Assembly (NCBI GenBank): GCA_018813805.1
Contig: JAHJAP010000093.1
Coordinates: 1-5,887 of the forward strand
Length of the DNA stretch: 5,887 bases
Direction of reading: 5' to 3'
Source of the DNA: Patescibacteria group bacterium
Lineage (GTDB): Bacteria; Patescibacteriota; Patescibacteriia; Patescibacteriales; GWC2-42-12
The notes beneath the pieces were generated by a model. The model saw only the letters and a list, made by a program, of their open reading frames with translations, did no database searches and was not told the DNA's origin. The position numbers and the translations under genes were made by a program. Each line of letters begins with the position of its first letter. Within the stretch, counting starts at the first letter, position 1. Positions 67 to 5,887 of this stretch are shown here, piece by piece.

Positions 67-140
67 GGACAATTAGCTCAGTTGGTTAGAGCGTCACATT
101 GACATTGTGAAGGCCACTGGTTCGAGTCCAGTATTGTCCA
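67..140 (+). tRNA. tRNA-Val (anticodon GAC)
   Basis: A complete 74-nt cloverleaf can be folded. The acceptor stem GGACAAU (67-73) pairs with AUUGUCC (133-139), with discriminator A140. The D stem is GCUC/GAGC (76-79 and 89-92). The anticodon stem is UCACA/UGUGA (94-98 and 106-110) around the loop UUGACAU, which puts GAC at 101-103 and so reads the valine codons GUC and GUU. The T arm is ACUGG-UUCGAGU-CCAGU (116-132). The 3' CCA is not encoded, since A140 is followed by CAT. The 3' end coincides with the start of a 117-bp repeat, and the recombinase gene overlaps the whole gene body antisense from position 78. tRNA 3' ends are common integration targets, which fits the neighbouring recombinase. 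Confidence 0.95.
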
Positions 141-1679
141 CATTTCAAGATTTCTTTCGCCCTCGCCCTTCGCTTCGCTCGGGGCTCGGGCTTCCACCTT
201 CGCACTTTGTGCTTCGGCGGACAAGTCGGCGGGCAGAAAATAAAGGTAATTCCACGGCTTTTTGAAATCTACAAAAAGCCGTTGGTCAAAAATTCGGCGG
301 TTCGAGCCGATTTTTTTGATAAAATTTTTCATCTCTGAAAAATCGTTCTCCAAAGCGAAATTTTTGGCTTGGTTGGCCTCTAAAATCCAATTTCTTGTGA
401 GTTCGAGCCAATGATTTCCTTTTCGCTCAAAATCCGATAATTTTTCCTCTTTTGTTTTCTTTTCCGCCATTAGGGCGTTTTTTGTTTGCTGAAATTCCAC
501 CAGTTCCAACGCTTCGGAAAGATAAGCGTCTGTTAGTCGTTCCAGTTTCGCTTTAATGGCGGAAATATCTTTTTTGAGATTTTGAGCGAAAAGGTCTGAT
601 GTTTGGCGGTTCTCATTTTCCCACACTTTTAATTTATCCAAGTATCTTTCCCGCCAAACATCGGGCAAAGAAACTTTTTGACAATTCTCTTTTACCTGCT
701 CGGTTAAAAGTTCCTCCCGCAAAAAGCGAGTTTGCGAACAATTTTGCGTTTTGCTTTTATGGGTGCAACGATAATATACAAATTTTAGTCCGCTTTTTTT
801 GATGTGCCGCTCCGCTGTTATGGAATATCCGCACTCGCCGCAAACCGCAAAATTGAGAAATTGAAAATTTTTTGGTCCTCGTTTTTTGCGAGGCTTGCCG
901 TTCGTTATTAATACTTCCTGTATTTGGTCAAAAAGTTTCTTTGAAATCATTGGTTTATGCGATCCTTGATGCACTTCGCCCCGATAGCGAAAATGTCCGT
1001 AATAAAACGGATTGGTCAAAATTTTCTGTATTGTAGAAAGATGAGGTAGTTTTCCGTCTTTGCCAACCAAGCCAAGAGAAAACATTTTGCTTTGAATTTT
1101 CGTTAAAGTATATTCGCTCGTTGCAAAAGCCCGCAAAATTTCTTTCACTTTGTTAAAAGTTTTTCGGTCTGGCTCAATCGTTCGCAATCTTGGCTCATTG
1201 AAATAACCGAGAGGGGCTTTTGCCGAAAGTTCACCTCGCCTGATTTTCTGCCTGATTCCTCGCAAAATGTTTTCTCTTAAATTATCGGTGTAATATTTGG
1301 CTTGTCCGAAAGCAACGCTCAACATAAATTTTCCTTGTGGCGTTGGTTCAAACCAAAAGGTAGGGAATTTTAGCGAGGTAATTTTTCCGGTATCAACGAG
1401 ATAAATTATCCGTCCGCCATCAATACTATTTCTCGCGAGGCGGTCGGGATTCCACGCTAAAATTCCCTGTGCGTTGCCTTTTTCAATTTCGGAAAGCATA
1501 AAATTAAAAACTTCTCGGCCCGGCTCTTTGGCTGTTTTGCTTTCGTAATATTCTTTAACCACGAAAAGATTGTTCTGTTTGGCAAATTCTCGCAGTTCTG
1601 CGAGCTGGGCCTCAATGGACAAAATTTGTCTTTCTTCGTCCTCACTTGATTTGCGACAATAGATAAAGTATTTAATCAT
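78..1679 (-). CDS. Large serine recombinase with a read-through tail antisense to tRNA-Val
   Basis: This 533-residue protein is a DNA recombinase of the large serine (resolvase/invertase) family, which cuts and rejoins DNA at attachment sites through a covalent seryl intermediate. Visible in order: an N-terminal catalytic domain (about 1-145) with YCRKSS and S11 or S12 as nucleophile (S11 by register with YxRxS), and the arginine motif NPDRLARNS (77-85); a recombinase domain (about 155-260); a zinc ribbon with C280, C283, C305 and C314; and a probable coiled coil (about 345-420). The body ends near W476 in a KPWNYLYF motif. Residues 476-514 are encoded by the 117-bp inverted repeat, and residues 515-533 by the antisense of tRNA-Val, so the tail looks acquired rather than ancestral. 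The start is ATG with no clear Shine-Dalgarno. The gene diverges from the regulator gene and its likely terminator is at 14-51. It could act as integrase for the island, as an invertase of its own segment, or both. Confidence 0.9.
   Translation of the reverse strand: MIKYFIYCRKSSEDEERQILSIEAQLAELREFAKQNNLFVVKEYYESKTAKEPGREVFNFMLSEIEKGNAQGILAWNPDRLARNSIDGGRIIYLVDTGKITSLKFPTFWFEPTPQGKFMLSVAFGQAKYYTDNLRENILRGIRQKIRRGELSAKAPLGYFNEPRLRTIEPDRKTFNKVKEILRAFATSEYTLTKIQSKMFSLGLVGKDGKLPHLSTIQKILTNPFYYGHFRYRGEVHQGSHKPMISKKLFDQIQEVLITNGKPRKKRGPKNFQFLNFAVCGECGYSITAERHIKKSGLKFVYYRCTHKSKTQNCSQTRFLREELLTEQVKENCQKVSLPDVWRERYLDKLKVWENENRQTSDLFAQNLKKDISAIKAKLERLTDAYLSEALELVEFQQTKNALMAEKKTKEEKLSDFERKGNHWLELTRNWILEANQAKNFALENDFSEMKNFIKKIGSNRRIFDQRLFVDFKKPWNYLYFLPADLSAEAQSAKVEARAPSEAKGEGERNLEMWTILDSNQWPSQCQCDALTN
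138..254 (+). repeat. 117-bp perfect inverted repeat, left copy (IR1-L)
   Basis: This copy is the exact reverse complement of 1735-1851 over 117 bp, checked base by base; the next base at each end mismatches. Its outer end is the CCA at 138-140, which is the tRNA-Val 3' end. Its inner end falls at codon 476 (Trp) of the recombinase gene. It is strikingly GC-rich compared with the AT-rich surroundings and contains GC-rich dyads. It encodes recombinase residues 476-514 on the minus strand. Just outside the repeat the two flanks still resemble each other (ATTGTCCA here against ATTGACCA beside the other copy), as if the right copy had once carried a tRNA-end-like sequence. Confidence 0.95.
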
Positions 1680-1698
1680 AGTTTTTAGAAGTTTTTAA

Positions 1699-1908
1699 TT
1701 TTATTTTTACACCGACAATTTAAAAAATTTCGTTTGGAATTACCTTTATTTTCTGCCCGCCGACTTGTCCGCCGAAGCACAAAGTGCGAAGGTGGAAGCC
1801 CGAGCCCCGAGCGAAGCGAAGGGCGAGGGCGAAAGAAATCTTGAAATGTGGTCAATTTTAGAAAAAGTTAGAACTCATTTTCAAGAAAACCCCGACGCCG
1901 ACTTCTGA
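1699..1908 (+). pseudogene. Orphan recombinase-like C-terminal reading frame through IR1-R
   Basis: On the plus strand a frame opens after the TAA at 1696-1698, passes through the right repeat copy in the same phase that the recombinase uses in the left copy, and ends at TGA 1906-1908. It encodes WNYLYF, the repeat-encoded tail, then a different ending, SILEKVRTHFQENPDADF. There is no credible start codon, so it is unlikely to be expressed alone. Either it is the stranded 3' end of a recombinase gene, or the alternative C-terminus the recombinase would gain if the segment between the repeats inverted. Frame conservation is seen directly; function is inference. Confidence 0.4.
1735..1851 (-). 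repeat. 117-bp perfect inverted repeat, right copy (IR1-R)
   Basis: This is the exact reverse complement of 138-254. Its inner edge lies 56 bp upstream of the recombinase start codon, so the pair frames the recombinase body and its promoter region (255-1734). Within it, GCCC-GA-GCCC (1798-1807) can pair with GGGC-GA-GGGC (1821-1830), giving two 4-bp GC stems separated by a tandem GA/GA internal loop. The 13-nt apical loop contains GCGAAGC (1811-1817). A second dyad, GCAC-AAA-GTGC, lies just upstream. Perfect identity between copies implies a recent duplication, continuing gene conversion or inversion, or an assembly artefact. Confidence 0.95.
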
Positions 1909-1920
1909 AAAATTACGCTC

Positions 1921-1969
1921 GGGCGGGCAAAAAGGAAGGGGGTTGGGGGGAAGGAATTTTTGCCCGCCC
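1921..1969. repeat. G-rich-loop hairpin (13-bp perfect stem)
   Basis: GGGCGGGCAAAAA (1921-1933) pairs perfectly with TTTTTGCCCGCCC (1957-1969). The 23-nt loop consists of G-runs (G2, G5, G6, G2) split by AA, TT and AA, so it could form a G-quadruplex on the plus strand. The downstream half of this hairpin belongs to the 75-bp inverted repeat, whose far copy stops inside the loop and lacks the first stem arm. No T-run follows directly on either strand, so a standard terminator is not the best reading. Confidence 0.75.
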
Positions 1970-2014
1970 TCACTTTCGCCGCTTCTTTTTTCGCCGCCGC
2001 AATTTTTCGTATTT
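1940..2014 (+). repeat. 75-bp perfect inverted repeat, left copy (IR2-L)
   Basis: This copy is the exact reverse complement of 5704-5778 over 75 bp, checked base by base, with mismatches immediately beyond each end. It is GC-rich and dominated by repeated cgcc/gccg units. It begins inside the G-rich loop of the hairpin at 1921-1969. Together with its partner it frames the regulator, the methyltransferase and the whole preQ0 operon. It shows no similarity to the 117-bp repeat beyond general GC-richness. Confidence 0.95.
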
Positions 2015-2126: not shown

Positions 2127-2324
2127 ATGTCAAATATAACCAAAAATTTAAGAAGGATGAGAGAAGCCAAAGGGCTTTCTCAAGAAAAATTGGCGAGATT
2201 GGCCGATGTCGCCAATAATACGATTATCAAAATTGAAGCTGGTAAAAATCAGAATCCAACACTTGATACACTCAAGAAAATAGCTAAAGCTCTTGAGATT
2301 AGTGTCGATGATTTAATCAAATAA
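2127..2324 (+). CDS. Xre/Cro-C1-type HTH transcriptional regulator
   Basis: This 65-residue protein is a single helix-turn-helix domain of the Xre (HTH_3) family with no other domain. The recognisable core runs from LSQEKLARLADV (17-28) through NNTIIKIEAGKNQNPTLDTLKKIAKAL (30-56), the usual five-helix pattern with the recognition helix around 30-37. Small stand-alone Xre proteins are typical of plasmids, phages and islands, where they repress their own promoter and neighbouring genes. It is the first gene inside the 75-bp repeat pair and is followed after 5 bp by the methyltransferase gene, so the two are probably co-transcribed. The dyad abutting its start codon is a possible autoregulatory site. 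Its targets are unknown; the que promoter and the recombinase gene are candidates. Confidence 0.85.
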   Translation: MSNITKNLRRMREAKGLSQEKLARLADVANNTIIKIEAGKNQNPTLDTLKKIAKALEISVDDLIK

Positions 2325-2329
2325 TTTTT

Positions 2330-3082
2330 ATGGAGCAAAAAATGGAATCAGAAAAACCATTGGAAAAACCAGAAAATATCAATCCCGAAATAACTAGAAA
2401 CTTTGTTGATTTTATAAAAGAAAAATCTGAGGCGGGGCCGTATAGAGTCGAAGTAAAAGTTGGCGATAAAGTTATCCCGATTGATGTTTTTCCAACGGTT
2501 TTTCCTCCCAGATCGGATTACAGCGTAAGTTCAAAATCAGTATTTGAAACATTTGGTAATCTTCAAGGATTAGAAGTTGCCGACATCGGTTCGGGAAGTG
2601 GAATTGAATCAATTGTTGCGGCAATGGCCGGCGCAAATCATGTTGACGCGGCTGATATAAATCAACAAGCTGTTGATTGCTCAAAACATAATGTTGAAAT
2701 GAATGGTTTGCAAAACACTATAGAAGTTTTTTATTCTGATCTTTTTCAGAATTTTCCAGAAAAGAAATATGATTTAATCATTGCAAATTTACCGATTGTA
2801 AATTTTGACGCTGGCGATAGCCCCATTAATCAAGCACTTTACGACAAAGGCTTTGAAATACATAAAAGATTATTTAGAGATGCCAAAAAAAATTTAATTG
2901 AAAATGGAATAATCATCTTTACACACGCGAACCTTCAGAGTGCAAAAACAGCAAGCCCGGATTATGATTTTATAATTTTAGAAAAATTAATTGATGATTA
3001 TGGTTACAAAATCACGGAAAAAGCGGAAAGAAAAGATTTGGGCTATAAATGGATAAATTATAAAATCGCTCTTAAAAGATGA
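2330..3082 (+). CDS. Class I SAM-dependent methyltransferase, substrate unknown
   Basis: This 250-residue protein has a Rossmann-fold methyltransferase domain. Motif I is VADIGSGSGIES (83-94), which binds S-adenosylmethionine. D109 in DAADIN is the expected acidic residue of motif II. ANLPI (152-156) sits where PrmC/HemK- and RsmC-like enzymes have NPPY or NPPF, so the catalytic motif is atypical: NLPI keeps the Asn and one Pro but lacks the aromatic residue. The preceding FPPRSDYSVSS (58-68) resembles the segment before the core in that group. The first 35 residues are charged and probably flexible. Protein, RNA and small-molecule substrates are all possible; nothing ties it directly to 7-deazaguanine chemistry. 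An ATG at 2342 (Met5) has a well-placed GGAG and may be the true start. The gene sits 5 bp after the regulator and 169 bp before queD, which has its own promoter. Confidence 0.8.
   Translation: MEQKMESEKPLEKPENINPEITRNFVDFIKEKSEAGPYRVEVKVGDKVIPIDVFPTVFPPRSDYSVSSKSVFETFGNLQGLEVADIGSGSGIESIVAAMAGANHVDAADINQQAVDCSKHNVEMNGLQNTIEVFYSDLFQNFPEKKYDLIIANLPIVNFDAGDSPINQALYDKGFEIHKRLFRDAKKNLIENGIIIFTHANLQSAKTASPDYDFIILEKLIDDYGYKITEKAERKDLGYKWINYKIALKR
2332..2344 (+). promoter_or_regulatory. Shine-Dalgarno favouring the internal methyltransferase start
   Basis: GGAG at 2332-2335 is followed after 6 nt by ATG at 2342-2344, which is codon 5 of the longer reading frame. The ATG at 2330 has only T-rich sequence upstream. 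The internal start would shorten the protein by four residues (MEQK) outside any domain. Confidence 0.5.
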
Positions 3083-3251: not shown

Positions 3252-3599
3252 ATGATTAAAATAACAAAAGAATTTACCTTTGATTCTGCTCATCAGCTAA
3301 ATTGGCATCAAGGTAAATGTAAAAATTTACATGGCCATACTTATAAACTGCGAGTTACTGTCAAGGGAGAAATAAATCAAAATGGTATTATTATTGACTT
3401 CGGAGATTTAAAAGAGATTGTCAATGAGTTGGTAATTGAACAACTGGATCATAAATTTTTGAATGACATAGTAGACAACCCAACCGCTGAAAACTTAATA
3501 GTTTGGATTTGGGATCGGTTAAAATCAAAATTAAATTTATCAGAAATACGGCTTTGGGAAACTCCTACAAGTTATGTAACTTATAAAGGAAAATTATGA
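3252..3599 (+). CDS. queD: 6-carboxy-5,6,7,8-tetrahydropterin synthase (QueD)
   Basis: This cytoplasmic enzyme of the 6-pyruvoyltetrahydropterin synthase fold converts 7,8-dihydroneopterin triphosphate to 6-carboxytetrahydropterin, the second step of preQ0 synthesis. At 115 residues it has the usual QueD length. The zinc ligands are visible: H14 in FDSAH, and H27 and H29 in LHGH. The catalytic cysteine is C23 in the C-x3-HGH arrangement. Further family signatures are IDFGDLK (48-54), LDHKFLND (65-72) with the Asp-His pair, PTAEN (77-81) and E103 in WETP. All key residues are present, so it should be active. It is the first gene of the operon, behind its own promoter, and its TGA overlaps the queC ATG by 4 bp (ATGA), indicating translational coupling. 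Confidence 0.95.
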   Translation: MIKITKEFTFDSAHQLNWHQGKCKNLHGHTYKLRVTVKGEINQNGIIIDFGDLKEIVNELVIEQLDHKFLNDIVDNPTAENLIVWIWDRLKSKLNLSEIRLWETPTSYVTYKGKL

Positions 3600-4252
3600 A
3601 AGCAGTTATTATTATTTCAGGGGGAATGGATTCGACAGCAGCATTATATAAAGCGTGCCGAGATTATGATGCGGTCGAAGCTATTAGCTTTGATTATGGC
3701 TCAAAGCATAATCATAAAGAGATCCCTTTTGCCAAATATCATTGCGATAAGTTGGGAATTAAGCATCAGGTTGTTAATCTTGAATTTATGAATAAACTAT
3801 TTAAGTCTGATTTACTAAAATCAGGCGGGAATATACCAGAAGGACATTATGAACAAGAAAAAATGAAATCTACCGTCGTTCCTTTTAGAAACGGAATAAT
3901 GCTTGCCATCGCTTGTGGGTATGCCGAGAGTATTGATGCAGATAAAGTTATTATTGGTTCCCATGTCGGCGATCACGCCATATATCCAGATTGTCGAACT
4001 GAGTTTAATAAAGCCATAAATGAAGCCATGAAACTTGGAACTTATAAAAATGTTCAACTTGAGGCGCCTTTTGAAAAATTAAGAAAAGAAGACATTGCTA
4101 AAATGGGAAACGAATTAGGAATAGATTTTTCGCAGACCTGGTCTTGTTATAAAGGTGGCGAATTGCATTGCGGCAAATGTGGAACCTGCGTTGAGAGAAA
4201 AGAAGCTTTCAAACTCGCGGGGTTAGAAGATAAAACTCAATATGAAAATTAA
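3596..4252 (+). CDS. queC: 7-cyano-7-deazaguanine (preQ0) synthase (QueC)
   Basis: QueC converts 7-carboxy-7-deazaguanine to preQ0 using ATP and ammonia, first adenylating the carboxylate and forming an amide, then dehydrating it to the nitrile. The 218 residues match the family length. The PP-loop SGGMDST (8-14) binds ATP pyrophosphate; the VPFRNG segment (95-100) is a family signature. The C-terminal structural zinc site has C184, C192, C195 and C198 in SCYKGGELHCGKCGTC (183-198). The ATG overlaps the queD stop and is preceded by AGGA (3587-3590) at 5-nt spacing, one of the few convincing ribosome-binding sites here. Its end overlaps queE by 11 bp. No defect is visible. Confidence 0.96.
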   Translation: MKAVIIISGGMDSTAALYKACRDYDAVEAISFDYGSKHNHKEIPFAKYHCDKLGIKHQVVNLEFMNKLFKSDLLKSGGNIPEGHYEQEKMKSTVVPFRNGIMLAIACGYAESIDADKVIIGSHVGDHAIYPDCRTEFNKAINEAMKLGTYKNVQLEAPFEKLRKEDIAKMGNELGIDFSQTWSCYKGGELHCGKCGTCVERKEAFKLAGLEDKTQYEN

Positions 4253-4889
4253 AATCAATGAAATCTTTAAAAGTATTCAGGGGGAAGGAATTTATACGGG
4301 CCTTCCTACGACATTTATCAGAACGACGGGGTGTAATTTAAGATGTTCTTGGTGTGATACAAAATACGCCTACTTTGGGGGGAGGGAAATGACATTAGAT
4401 CAAATTTTGGATAAATGTAGAAAATTAGAGGTAAAGAATATCTGTTTGACTGGAGGCGAACCATTAATTCACGGAGATAGGTCAAAGGAGCTGATTAAAT
4501 TGCTAATCAAAGAGGGATACGAGGTTTTAATCGAAACTAATGGGGCGTTCAATATTTCCAATCTGTCTAAAGAAGCAATTATTTCTTTGGATATTAAATG
4601 TCCTTCTTCTGGTATGAGCGATAAAATGCTTTATAAAAATTTGGATTTATTAAAGATGAAAGATCAGGTTAAGTTTATTATTGACGATATGAAAGATTAT
4701 AATTTTGCCAAGGATATCGTCAAGAAATATAAACTCGAGGGTAAAACCAACATTATTTTTCAGCCAGTATACAAAGAAGATACAAAATTTATTCAGAGTC
4801 TAATTAAAAAATTATTAGTCGACAAACTTCAGGTAAGAATAGGTTTGCAACTCCACAAAATTATCTGGGGTAATAAAAAAGGCGTTTAA
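4242..4889 (+). CDS. queE: 7-carboxy-7-deazaguanine synthase, radical SAM (QueE)
   Basis: QueE is a radical SAM enzyme that contracts the ring of 6-carboxytetrahydropterin to give 7-carboxy-7-deazaguanine, the committing step toward the deazapurine core. At 215 residues it is of the compact type usual for the family. The [4Fe-4S] cluster ligands are C31, C35 and C38 in CNLRCSWCDT (31-40). SIQGEG (11-16) is the characteristic N-terminal QueE signature for substrate contact. LTGGEP (69-74) contributes to SAM binding, ETNG (about 98-101) follows, and QLHKIIWG near the C-terminus is typical of the family. The start overlaps queC by 11 bp and lacks its own Shine-Dalgarno, so translation probably depends on coupling. 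Confidence 0.95.
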   Translation: MKIKINEIFKSIQGEGIYTGLPTTFIRTTGCNLRCSWCDTKYAYFGGREMTLDQILDKCRKLEVKNICLTGGEPLIHGDRSKELIKLLIKEGYEVLIETNGAFNISNLSKEAIISLDIKCPSSGMSDKMLYKNLDLLKMKDQVKFIIDDMKDYNFAKDIVKKYKLEGKTNIIFQPVYKEDTKFIQSLIKKLLVDKLQVRIGLQLHKIIWGNKKGV

Positions 4890-4899
4890 ATTAAAAAAA

Positions 4900-5685
4900 A
4901 TGAAAGACATTCAAAAAAACAAACCTGTCCGAGAGATTGATATTAATATGGTAGGCGTCAAAAATCTGAAGGCGCCGCTTGTGGTTATCGATAAAAAGAA
5001 CAAATGTCAAGAAACAGTTGGCAGTATTAATATTTTTGTTAATTTACCCCGACATTATAGAGGTACTCACATAAGCCGTTTTATTGAGGTTCTGAATAGA
5101 TATACAAAAAAGACGCTGACGGTTGAGGTTTTAGATAAATTAACTTTAGAAATTTTAAGAATTCTTGAGGCAGAAAAAAGTAGAATAGAAATAGAATTTC
5201 CGTATTTTATTTTAAAATCATCACCTATCTCAAAGAAAAAGTCATTGTTGGACTATCAATGTAAGATAATTAGAATTGCCAATAGAAACATCAAGGAGAT
5301 TGAGCATATAATTCAGGTTGAAGTACCAATTACAACCGTCTGTCCATGCAGTAAAGCAATAAGTAAATATGGCGCCCATAATCAGAGAGGATATGTAACA
5401 GTAAGTATGAAATTGAATAAATTTTTTTGGATTGAAGAGGTTATTGATATTATTGAGGAAGAAGCTAGTTGTGATATATATCCACTTTTGAAGCGAGAAG
5501 ACGAGAAATATGTGACCGAAAAAGCCTATGAAAATCCAAAATTTGCCGAAGACATTGTTCGAGATGTTAGTTATAGATTAGAACAAGATAAAAGAATTGA
5601 TTGGTTTAAGGTTGAATGCGAAAATCAAGAGAGTGTTCACAATCATAATGTTTACGCAAAAATCGAGAATCGGTTACCAGATTAA
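4900..5685 (+). CDS. folE2: GTP cyclohydrolase FolE2 (type IB)
   Basis: FolE2 opens GTP to 7,8-dihydroneopterin triphosphate, the entry step shared by folate and preQ0 synthesis. At 261 residues it is full-length for the FolE2/MptA family. Signatures include GVKNLKAPL (19-27), VNLPRHYRGTHISRF (47-61), the active-site stretch TTVCPCSKAISKYGAHNQRG (145-164) with C148 and H160 as likely metal and catalytic residues, LKREDEKYVTEKAYENPKF (197-215), and ESVHNHN (244-250) with H247 and H249. It is not QueF: the QueF reductase has a different nitrile-binding Cys motif and the protein aligns throughout with the GTP cyclohydrolase pattern. It starts 10 bp after queE without a clear Shine-Dalgarno and is last in the operon. 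Placement with queD-C-E indicates service to preQ0 rather than folate. Family members are less zinc-dependent than FolE1. Confidence 0.95.
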   Translation: MKDIQKNKPVREIDINMVGVKNLKAPLVVIDKKNKCQETVGSINIFVNLPRHYRGTHISRFIEVLNRYTKKTLTVEVLDKLTLEILRILEAEKSRIEIEFPYFILKSSPISKKKSLLDYQCKIIRIANRNIKEIEHIIQVEVPITTVCPCSKAISKYGAHNQRGYVTVSMKLNKFFWIEEVIDIIEEEASCDIYPLLKREDEKYVTEKAYENPKFAEDIVRDVSYRLEQDKRIDWFKVECENQESVHNHNVYAKIENRLPD

Positions 5686-5703: not shown

Positions 5704-5778
5704 AAATACGAAAAATTGCGGCGGCGAAAAAAGAAGCGGCGAAAGTGAGGGCGGGCAAAAATTCCTTCCCCCCAACCC
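5704..5778 (-). repeat. 75-bp perfect inverted repeat, right copy (IR2-R)
   Basis: This is the exact reverse complement of 1940-2014. It begins 18 bp after the folE2 stop and breaks off inside what is the G-rich hairpin loop in the left copy, so this side cannot form the 13-bp stem. The pair encloses about 3.7 kb (2015-5703). The sequence after it changes abruptly to a composition without the repeat's GC-rich character, which may be the flank outside the cassette. No separate terminator for the que operon was seen between folE2 and this repeat. Confidence 0.95.
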
Positions 5779-5825
5779 AGTATGAGAGAATTAATTTAAA
5801 TATTGCTCTATGATATTGTGAAAGC

Positions 5826-5864
5826 AGGAGGCAAACAATGTTTACCCCAGACCTGCCAATTTAA
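5826..5864 (+). other. Strong Shine-Dalgarno with an 8-codon reading frame
   Basis: AGGAGG (5826-5831) lies 6 nt before an ATG (5838-5840), the best ribosome-binding site in the window, but the frame MFTPDLPI stops at TAA 5862-5864. It may be a short leader peptide, a decayed gene start, or chance. A minus-strand frame is also open from the window edge (5885) to TAG at 5808-5810 (25 residues); I do not recognise it, and it could be the end of a gene entering from the right. Neither is claimed as a gene. Confidence 0.2.
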
Positions 5865-5887
5865 GGCTTGAAGGGGATTGCAATTTG

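Follow-up and report, generated by a model that had tools for sequence, protein, structure and literature searches.

The locus examined here raises the question of why a gene for a large serine recombinase should lie between two perfect inverted copies of its own 3' portion, one of which runs into a tRNA gene, with the reading frame open through both. The stretch of DNA analysed (the window, 5,887 bp) is the whole of contig C42 of a 93.4%-complete genome bin of 688,760 bp in 121 contigs. An earlier note on this DNA had read the segment between the two copies as a possible module that inverts itself and thereby exchanges the tail of the recombinase. The recombinase part of the window holds the following features:

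67..141, plus strand: tRNA-Val (GAC), putative insertion target, its last bases within the left arm (ARAGORN; Rfam RF00005, 74.1 bits)
78..1679, minus strand: large serine recombinase of 533 aa, whose present ending, WTILDSNQWPSQCQCDALTN, consists of antisense-tRNA codons (ORF; Pfam)
138..254, minus strand: arm R, the final 117 bp of recombinase coding sequence up to the junction (repeat search)
138..254, minus strand: the same arm as a putative attL-like junction (R-tRNA) reading into the antisense of tRNA-Val, as judged from the tRNA or tmRNA genes on the 3' side in relatives
255..1734, no strand: segment U between the arms, with the recombinase body and its upstream region (repeat search)
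1735..1851, plus strand: arm R', perfect inverted copy of R (repeat search)
1849..1908, plus strand: T, native C-terminal codons W-SILEKVRTHFQENPDADF and stop (open frame, conserved tail, purifying selection; tail HMM 41.4 bits)

The perfect inverted repeat and the two endings described in the earlier note were both confirmed. The arms (138-254 and, in opposite orientation, 1735-1851) are identical over 117 bp (100%), reach 133-254 and 1735-1856 (122 nt) if one mismatch is allowed, and occur in exactly two copies, with no third, in the whole bin; a repeat of this length and perfection cannot have arisen by chance within 5.9 kb. Inverted repeats thus flank a segment, as they do in invertons. 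The left arm starts at a CCA (138-140) inside the 3' end of tRNA-Val(gac), which by our reading represents the final acceptor-stem bases plus the discriminator. The recombinase frame stays open through both arms, ending in WTILDSNQWPSQCQCDALTN on the tRNA side and in WSILEKVRTHFQENPDADF on the far side (codons 1849-1905, stop at 1906-1908), and the stretch from R' through T (1735-1908) is read as an intact second attP-like site.

By its domain content the enzyme belongs to the large serine recombinases, since it carries a resolvase domain (PF00239 Resolvase, 2.6e-19), a recombinase domain (PF07508 Recombinase, 1.4e-10) and a zinc beta-ribbon (PF13408 Zn_ribbon_recom, 1.8e-8), and it matches in sequence the A118 integrase structures 6dnw and 4kis (E about 5e-9); its NCBIfam matches all fall below cut-off. 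R9, K10 and S11 are invariant across 34 aligned recombinase proteins, and the conserved N-terminal serine in its YCRKSS context is the residue that we take to be the nucleophile. An AlphaFold model has a mean pLDDT of 64, with the tail mostly below 50 and helical at low confidence only.

Homologs were gathered from the family, order, class and phylum of the window, from named genome contigs (nearly all of them Patescibacteria) and from larger stretches, and those of at least 250 aa and at least 40% identity were retained and duplicates removed, giving 159 recombinase genes. Inverted arms were detected in 124 of them, so that the repeat is no local oddity; the median arm is 124 bp long (range 40-238 bp, 40 being the floor set in the search) and 98.8% identical, and the arms are at least 95% identical in 103 genes and fully identical in 50. 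Where both flanks are available (86 genes), arms are found in 73. A tRNA or tmRNA gene lies on the 3' side of 123 of the 159 genes, under 37 different labels; two of these genes have one on both sides, and five others have one on the 5' side only. Distant homologs (below 40% identity and outside the 159) often read into tRNAs as well, mostly without detected arms. Four copies (L142, L145, L147 and L178) sit at predicted tmRNA genes instead of tRNA genes, and at L249, in the single-contig genome G611 (contig C1), a pair of family members in facing orientation occupies tRNA-Leu and tRNA-Gln.

Homologs at E <= 1e-60, not all of them proven elements, occur in 125 of 380 genomes at class level and in 133 of 379 at phylum level. 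Viral contigs gave two partial matches to the recombinase, and the 8 plasmid records and the 10 listed of 25 phage records contained only relatives below 30% identity. A 483-aa gene upstream of the recombinase is 91% identical between L084 (G002:C5) and L067 (G108:C19), which come from different families of the order, suggesting recent transfer. An empty site supports insertion: in G458, DNA matching the downstream gene starts 141 bp after tRNA-Ala(ggc), whereas in G582, of the same genus, tRNA-Ala(ggc) and that gene are 8.9 kb apart, of which 7.4 kb is the element (L251), with an attL at the tRNA 3' end and an attR. The element does not account for the other 1.5 kb of extra DNA in G582, which lies beyond attR.

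Just outside the far arm, a regular-expression scan found the tail in 43 of 58 repeat-bearing named loci, and in a set picked by the protein motif, pN/pS was 0.26 (bootstrap 0.18-0.35) in the recombinase frame against 0.77 and 1.77 in the other two (28 pairs), with diversities of 0.34, 0.16 and 0.46 at the three codon positions. Since the motif was itself used to pick these tails, the set leans towards conservation, and the test was repeated on 65 loci chosen without it, having arms of at least 60 bp and at least 95% identity that end at a tRNA (35 other loci were skipped, 19 at contig ends and 16 without a tRNA at the arm end). In all 65 the recombinase frame is open for at least 12 codons past the far arm (with L223 masked wholly and L258 in part), whereas the other two frames are open that far in 49 and 22; the tail motif is present in 61, mostly with a stop after 13-19 codons, and pN/pS is 0.29 in the recombinase frame but 1.10 and 1.49 in the others (24 pairs, 60 sequences). 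Judged by these comparisons, the native C-terminus of the recombinase is the one encoded past the far arm (WSILEKVRTHFQENPDADF in the window). In-frame purifying selection implies that the tail is selected as protein and must sometimes be translated on the recombinase. This changes the assignment of the earlier note, in which the VRTHFQENPDADF tail was the novelty that inversion would create: it is instead the native tail, and the tRNA-encoded ending is most simply a product of integration. A frame-shifted variant (CYFSICSNFF-like), found in six of the best 120 of 7036 matched proteins (P0039, P0052, P0055, P0074, P0079 and P0101) and at 1-145 of L153, suggests that part of the conservation is due to the DNA site, and also suggests a second class of T.

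Selection on T bears on the possibility that a nested insertion left behind the far arm and T as an inactive relic of a second recombinase copy. R' and T do look like a truncated recombinase 3' end, and several recombinases share some contigs (G002:C5 has four matches), but a remnant would drift, while here T is under in-frame purifying selection and the arms are near-identical within loci and present in 124 of the 159 genes; we hold this origin to be very unlikely.

Outside T the window continues with cargo genes and a second, partial copy of the tail region:

1940..2014, plus strand: outer part of T, with an inverted match at 5704-5778 (75 nt, 100%)
2127..2324, plus strand: cargo, 65-aa helix-turn-helix protein (HTH_3, 2e-17)
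2330..3082, plus strand: cargo, methyltransferase of MTS / PrmA type (Pfam; NCBIfam matches all below cut-off)
3252..3599, plus strand: cargo, QueD (TIGR03367 above cut-off; PTPS, 1.7e-39)
3596..4252, plus strand: cargo, QueC (TIGR00364 above cut-off)
4242..4889, plus strand: cargo, QueE-like radical SAM protein (TIGR04349, 2.1e-69, below its curated cut-off)
4900..5685, plus strand: cargo, GTP cyclohydrolase FolE2 (NF010200 above cut-off)
5704..5778, minus strand: partial T' on the far side of the cargo (75-nt inverted repeat)

The cargo of the window is thus bracketed by a second perfect inverted repeat (1940-2014 and 5704-5778). This 75-bp sequence also occurs in contigs C43 and C110; a dispersed genomic repeat was considered and set aside, as equivalents flank the cargo in relatives, and we read it as the outer part of T and T'. 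Among 68 genes of at least 40% identity with more than 1.5 kb of upstream sequence, 27 have a tail-profile match upstream in the opposite orientation (T'), at 1.4-9.4 kb, and 41 have no second tail match; because of the permissive profile threshold, some few among the 27 may be chance matches. In 24 of the 27, T and T' form an inverted repeat across the cargo of 45-348 bp and 80-100% identity, several at 100% (for example L120 with 272 bp, L124 with 299 bp and L127 with 226 bp). No such repeat was found in L086, L147 and L177, and the upstream matches of L086 and L147 may be due to chance.

The second copy of T across the cargo, taken with the arms, gives the order of integrated relatives as host-T', cargo, T-R', recombinase, R-tRNA, with R/R' and T/T' as two inverted pairs that are often near-perfect. 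The segment at 255-1734, which the earlier note had treated as a self-standing module, is by comparison with these relatives one half of a larger element with a second inverted pair around its cargo. The same order bears on the idea of an insertion sequence of 1.7 kb with tRNA ends as its target and the recombinase as its only gene, in which the arms would be the terminal inverted repeats. A recombinase between long inverted repeats at many tRNAs is what such a transposon would look like; the DNA outside the far arm, however, is conserved, continues the recombinase frame and recurs across the cargo, so the arm is not the end of the element. With conserved coding T and cargo outside the far arm, the repeats are not outer ends, and we have ruled out this extremely improbable reading.

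Cargo genes are oriented divergently from the recombinase in 22 of the 27 loci with an upstream tail match, mixed in four and co-directional in one. Pairs of homologous ORFs lie in the same orientation in 13 cases and in the opposite one in a single case, a weak count given that several pairs are non-independent, three lie beside repeats and some lie beyond the cargo. A Pfam scan of 30 chosen cargo proteins from 14 loci matched restriction endonucleases, DNA methylases, OLD-type nucleases and a two-component system, along with NUDIX and Ham1 enzymes, a Na/Ca exchanger, GrpB and an HTH protein; six of the 30 had no Pfam match at 1e-5.

We consider it likely that the locus is an integrative element in which the last ~117 bp of the recombinase gene form half of the attachment site, so that integration at the 3' end of a tRNA gene swaps the native tail for antisense-tRNA codons. 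The free circle would carry two inverted attP sites (R-T) that divide it into a recombinase half and a cargo half, one of them overlapping the 3' end of the recombinase gene. Integration through this attP would replace the native tail and leave the other attP intact, while use of the other attP, or exchange between the arms, would keep or restore the native-tailed form. Simple integration with one attP was rejected because it cannot leave an intact, inverted R'-T beside the recombinase. Serine integrases are not known normally to pair attP with attP, which counts against this reading. By its arrangement, the window represents the tRNA-facing, tRNA-tailed state of the element.

Proteins carrying the alternative tails were sought among 7036 matched homologs, of which the best 120 were scored for tail class. 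The native tail was present in 20, which hold the junction between recombinase and VRTHF tail that the earlier note had proposed to look for, 72 fit a loose antisense-tRNA pattern (a few of these being truncated proteins), 22 have neither tail, many of them cut at the junction, and the other six carry the frame-shifted variant. P0027, with the native tail, and P0022, with a tRNA tail, are 99.4% identical over their first 470 aa. In genome bins the native fusion is rare: the profile found it in one of the 159 genes (L153), to which come a partial case (L079) and a diverged one recognised by eye (L241). The tail switch proposed earlier therefore stands in so far as two C-termini occur on near-identical enzymes, but the switch is probably integration itself rather than flipping.

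Flipping deserves separate consideration, because the arms could also delimit an invertible module: the segment between them would flip in place, by homologous recombination or through the recombinase, and thereby change both the tail and the orientation towards the tRNA, with no excision of the element. The arms are perfect in the window and homogenised within loci, the native tail is under selection, and both arrangements of the arms relative to the tRNA occur, since at 10 loci the upstream arm leads into a tRNA or tmRNA gene. Integration through the second attP explains away-facing copies equally well, however, and frequent inversion is not supported by the orientation of the family: the 123 genes with the tRNA on the 3' side against the five with it on the 5' side only make free in-place flipping doubtful, and the cargo bias (with the homologous ORF pairs, weakly) points the same way. 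Among 46 loci first found with native-tailed queries, 39 have a 3'-side tRNA and none has one on the 5' side. We regard an in-place invertible module as rather unlikely.

Where a tRNA adjoins the upstream arm (10 loci), no complete away-facing copy with a native tail was seen; eight of these loci end at most 137 bp from the last recombinase match, and the other two, L087 and L093, have tRNAs on both sides of the recombinase. The recombinase lies between two tRNA-Pro genes in L087/L005 and between two tRNA-Ala genes in L093/L008, an arrangement that could arise if the two attachment sites each recombined with a different tRNA, thereby rearranging the chromosome.

The likeness of the arms to each other adds a further constraint. 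Within a locus the two arms have a median identity of 0.992. The figure falls to 0.799 when the best arm pair is taken between a locus and its nearest neighbour, although the bodies of those neighbours have an identity of 0.849; the within-locus value is the higher one in 90 of 98 comparisons, equals the other in two and is lower in six. Part of the arm similarity is built in, as the arms were found by similarity. With that caveat, the pattern calls for recurrent exchange between arms. Such exchange, the arms being inverted, ought to turn the intervening segment round as well. Orientation is nevertheless strongly biased, and the counts given above (123 to 5, 39 to 0, and 22 of 27 for the cargo) indicate either that inversion through the arms is infrequent or that it is selected against, the flipped state being soon lost. 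Rapid loss of the flipped state fits a model in which copies that face away from the tRNA and have the native tail are active and depart. The marked predominance of tRNA-facing copies suggests that the native-tailed, away-facing integrated state is brief; this would agree with a native tail that marks the active enzyme and whose loss locks the element in place, as we predict.

The far end of the element in the window is less clear than the left one and consists of the partial T' at 5704-5778 only. Beyond 5778 the 88 bp of T that would be expected to join the host at attR do not follow, and no attR was found for the window itself. The end of contig G000:C43 (L036) carries a near-identical T' piece with the same flank as 5704-5887 of the window, so attR is either truncated or the assembly is ambiguous there. 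Two contigs of one bin with different contents thus have this T' piece and flank in common, which could mean that different cargoes adjoin a single flank within the population or that the assembly is ambiguous. Because the contig is short, its bin is split into 121 contigs and its far end is ambiguous, a fold-back or chimeric assembly artefact in a fragmented metagenome bin might be thought to account for the repeat itself, and the earlier note had named misassembly as a concern. The same architecture is found in the single-contig genomes G582 (802,554 bp), G611 and G555 and in many separate assemblies, which contradicts an artefact for the family and leaves this explanation barely credible.

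Patescibacteria have tiny genomes and few described mobile elements. The elements of this family carry restriction-modification genes, a two-component system and NUDIX enzymes, and the window carries a preQ0-synthesis set at 3252-5685 (QueD, QueC, QueE-like and FolE2), with no QueF seen in the window. This set could supply queuosine in tRNA or 7-deazaguanine modification of DNA. More tentatively, and with well under even confidence, we propose that the target tRNA acts as a molecular lock: insertion would overwrite the conserved tail and silence the integrase, and the inverted spare 3' end would let arm exchange re-arm the enzyme and free the cargo, in what would be widespread small elements of Patescibacteria. 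Inverted attachment sites combined with a target-encoded C-terminus make testable the old question of what stops a serine integrase from undoing its own insertion, and if the tail is the switch, a simple one-way integrase for genome engineering is suggested.

Among the titles found in a literature search, none describes this architecture, and its parts recall several known systems. With large serine integrase elements of the phage A118 type it has in common the Resolvase, Recombinase and zinc-ribbon domains and site-specific insertion; it differs in having two inverted attP-like sites, as we infer, instead of one, in the placement of one of them within the 3' end of the recombinase gene, and in that integration would rewrite the C-terminus of the enzyme, the conserved native tail being missing from the integrated copy. 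Archaeal integrases of the SSV type are tyrosine recombinases whose attP lies inside the gene, which is split by integration. The present element resembles them in an attP within the integrase gene and in the alteration of coding sequence by integration, but here the gene stays open with a foreign tail and the native 3' end is kept in inverted form. In the yeast 2-micron plasmid, a eukaryotic plasmid, the tyrosine recombinase FLP acts at FRT sites to bring about inversion for amplification, and there is no chromosomal integration; the likeness lies in a small circle halved by inverted recombination sites, a circle that we infer here from R/R' and T/T' of integrated copies. Intragenic invertons and shufflons switch protein C-termini, and like them the element has inverted repeats within a coding region and two C-termini on offer, but its alternative tail would come from the integration target, and any inversion of its segment is putative. 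By analogy, then, the element would work like a tRNA-targeted integrative element that combines SSV-like rewriting of its gene with a 2-micron-like inverted pair of sites.
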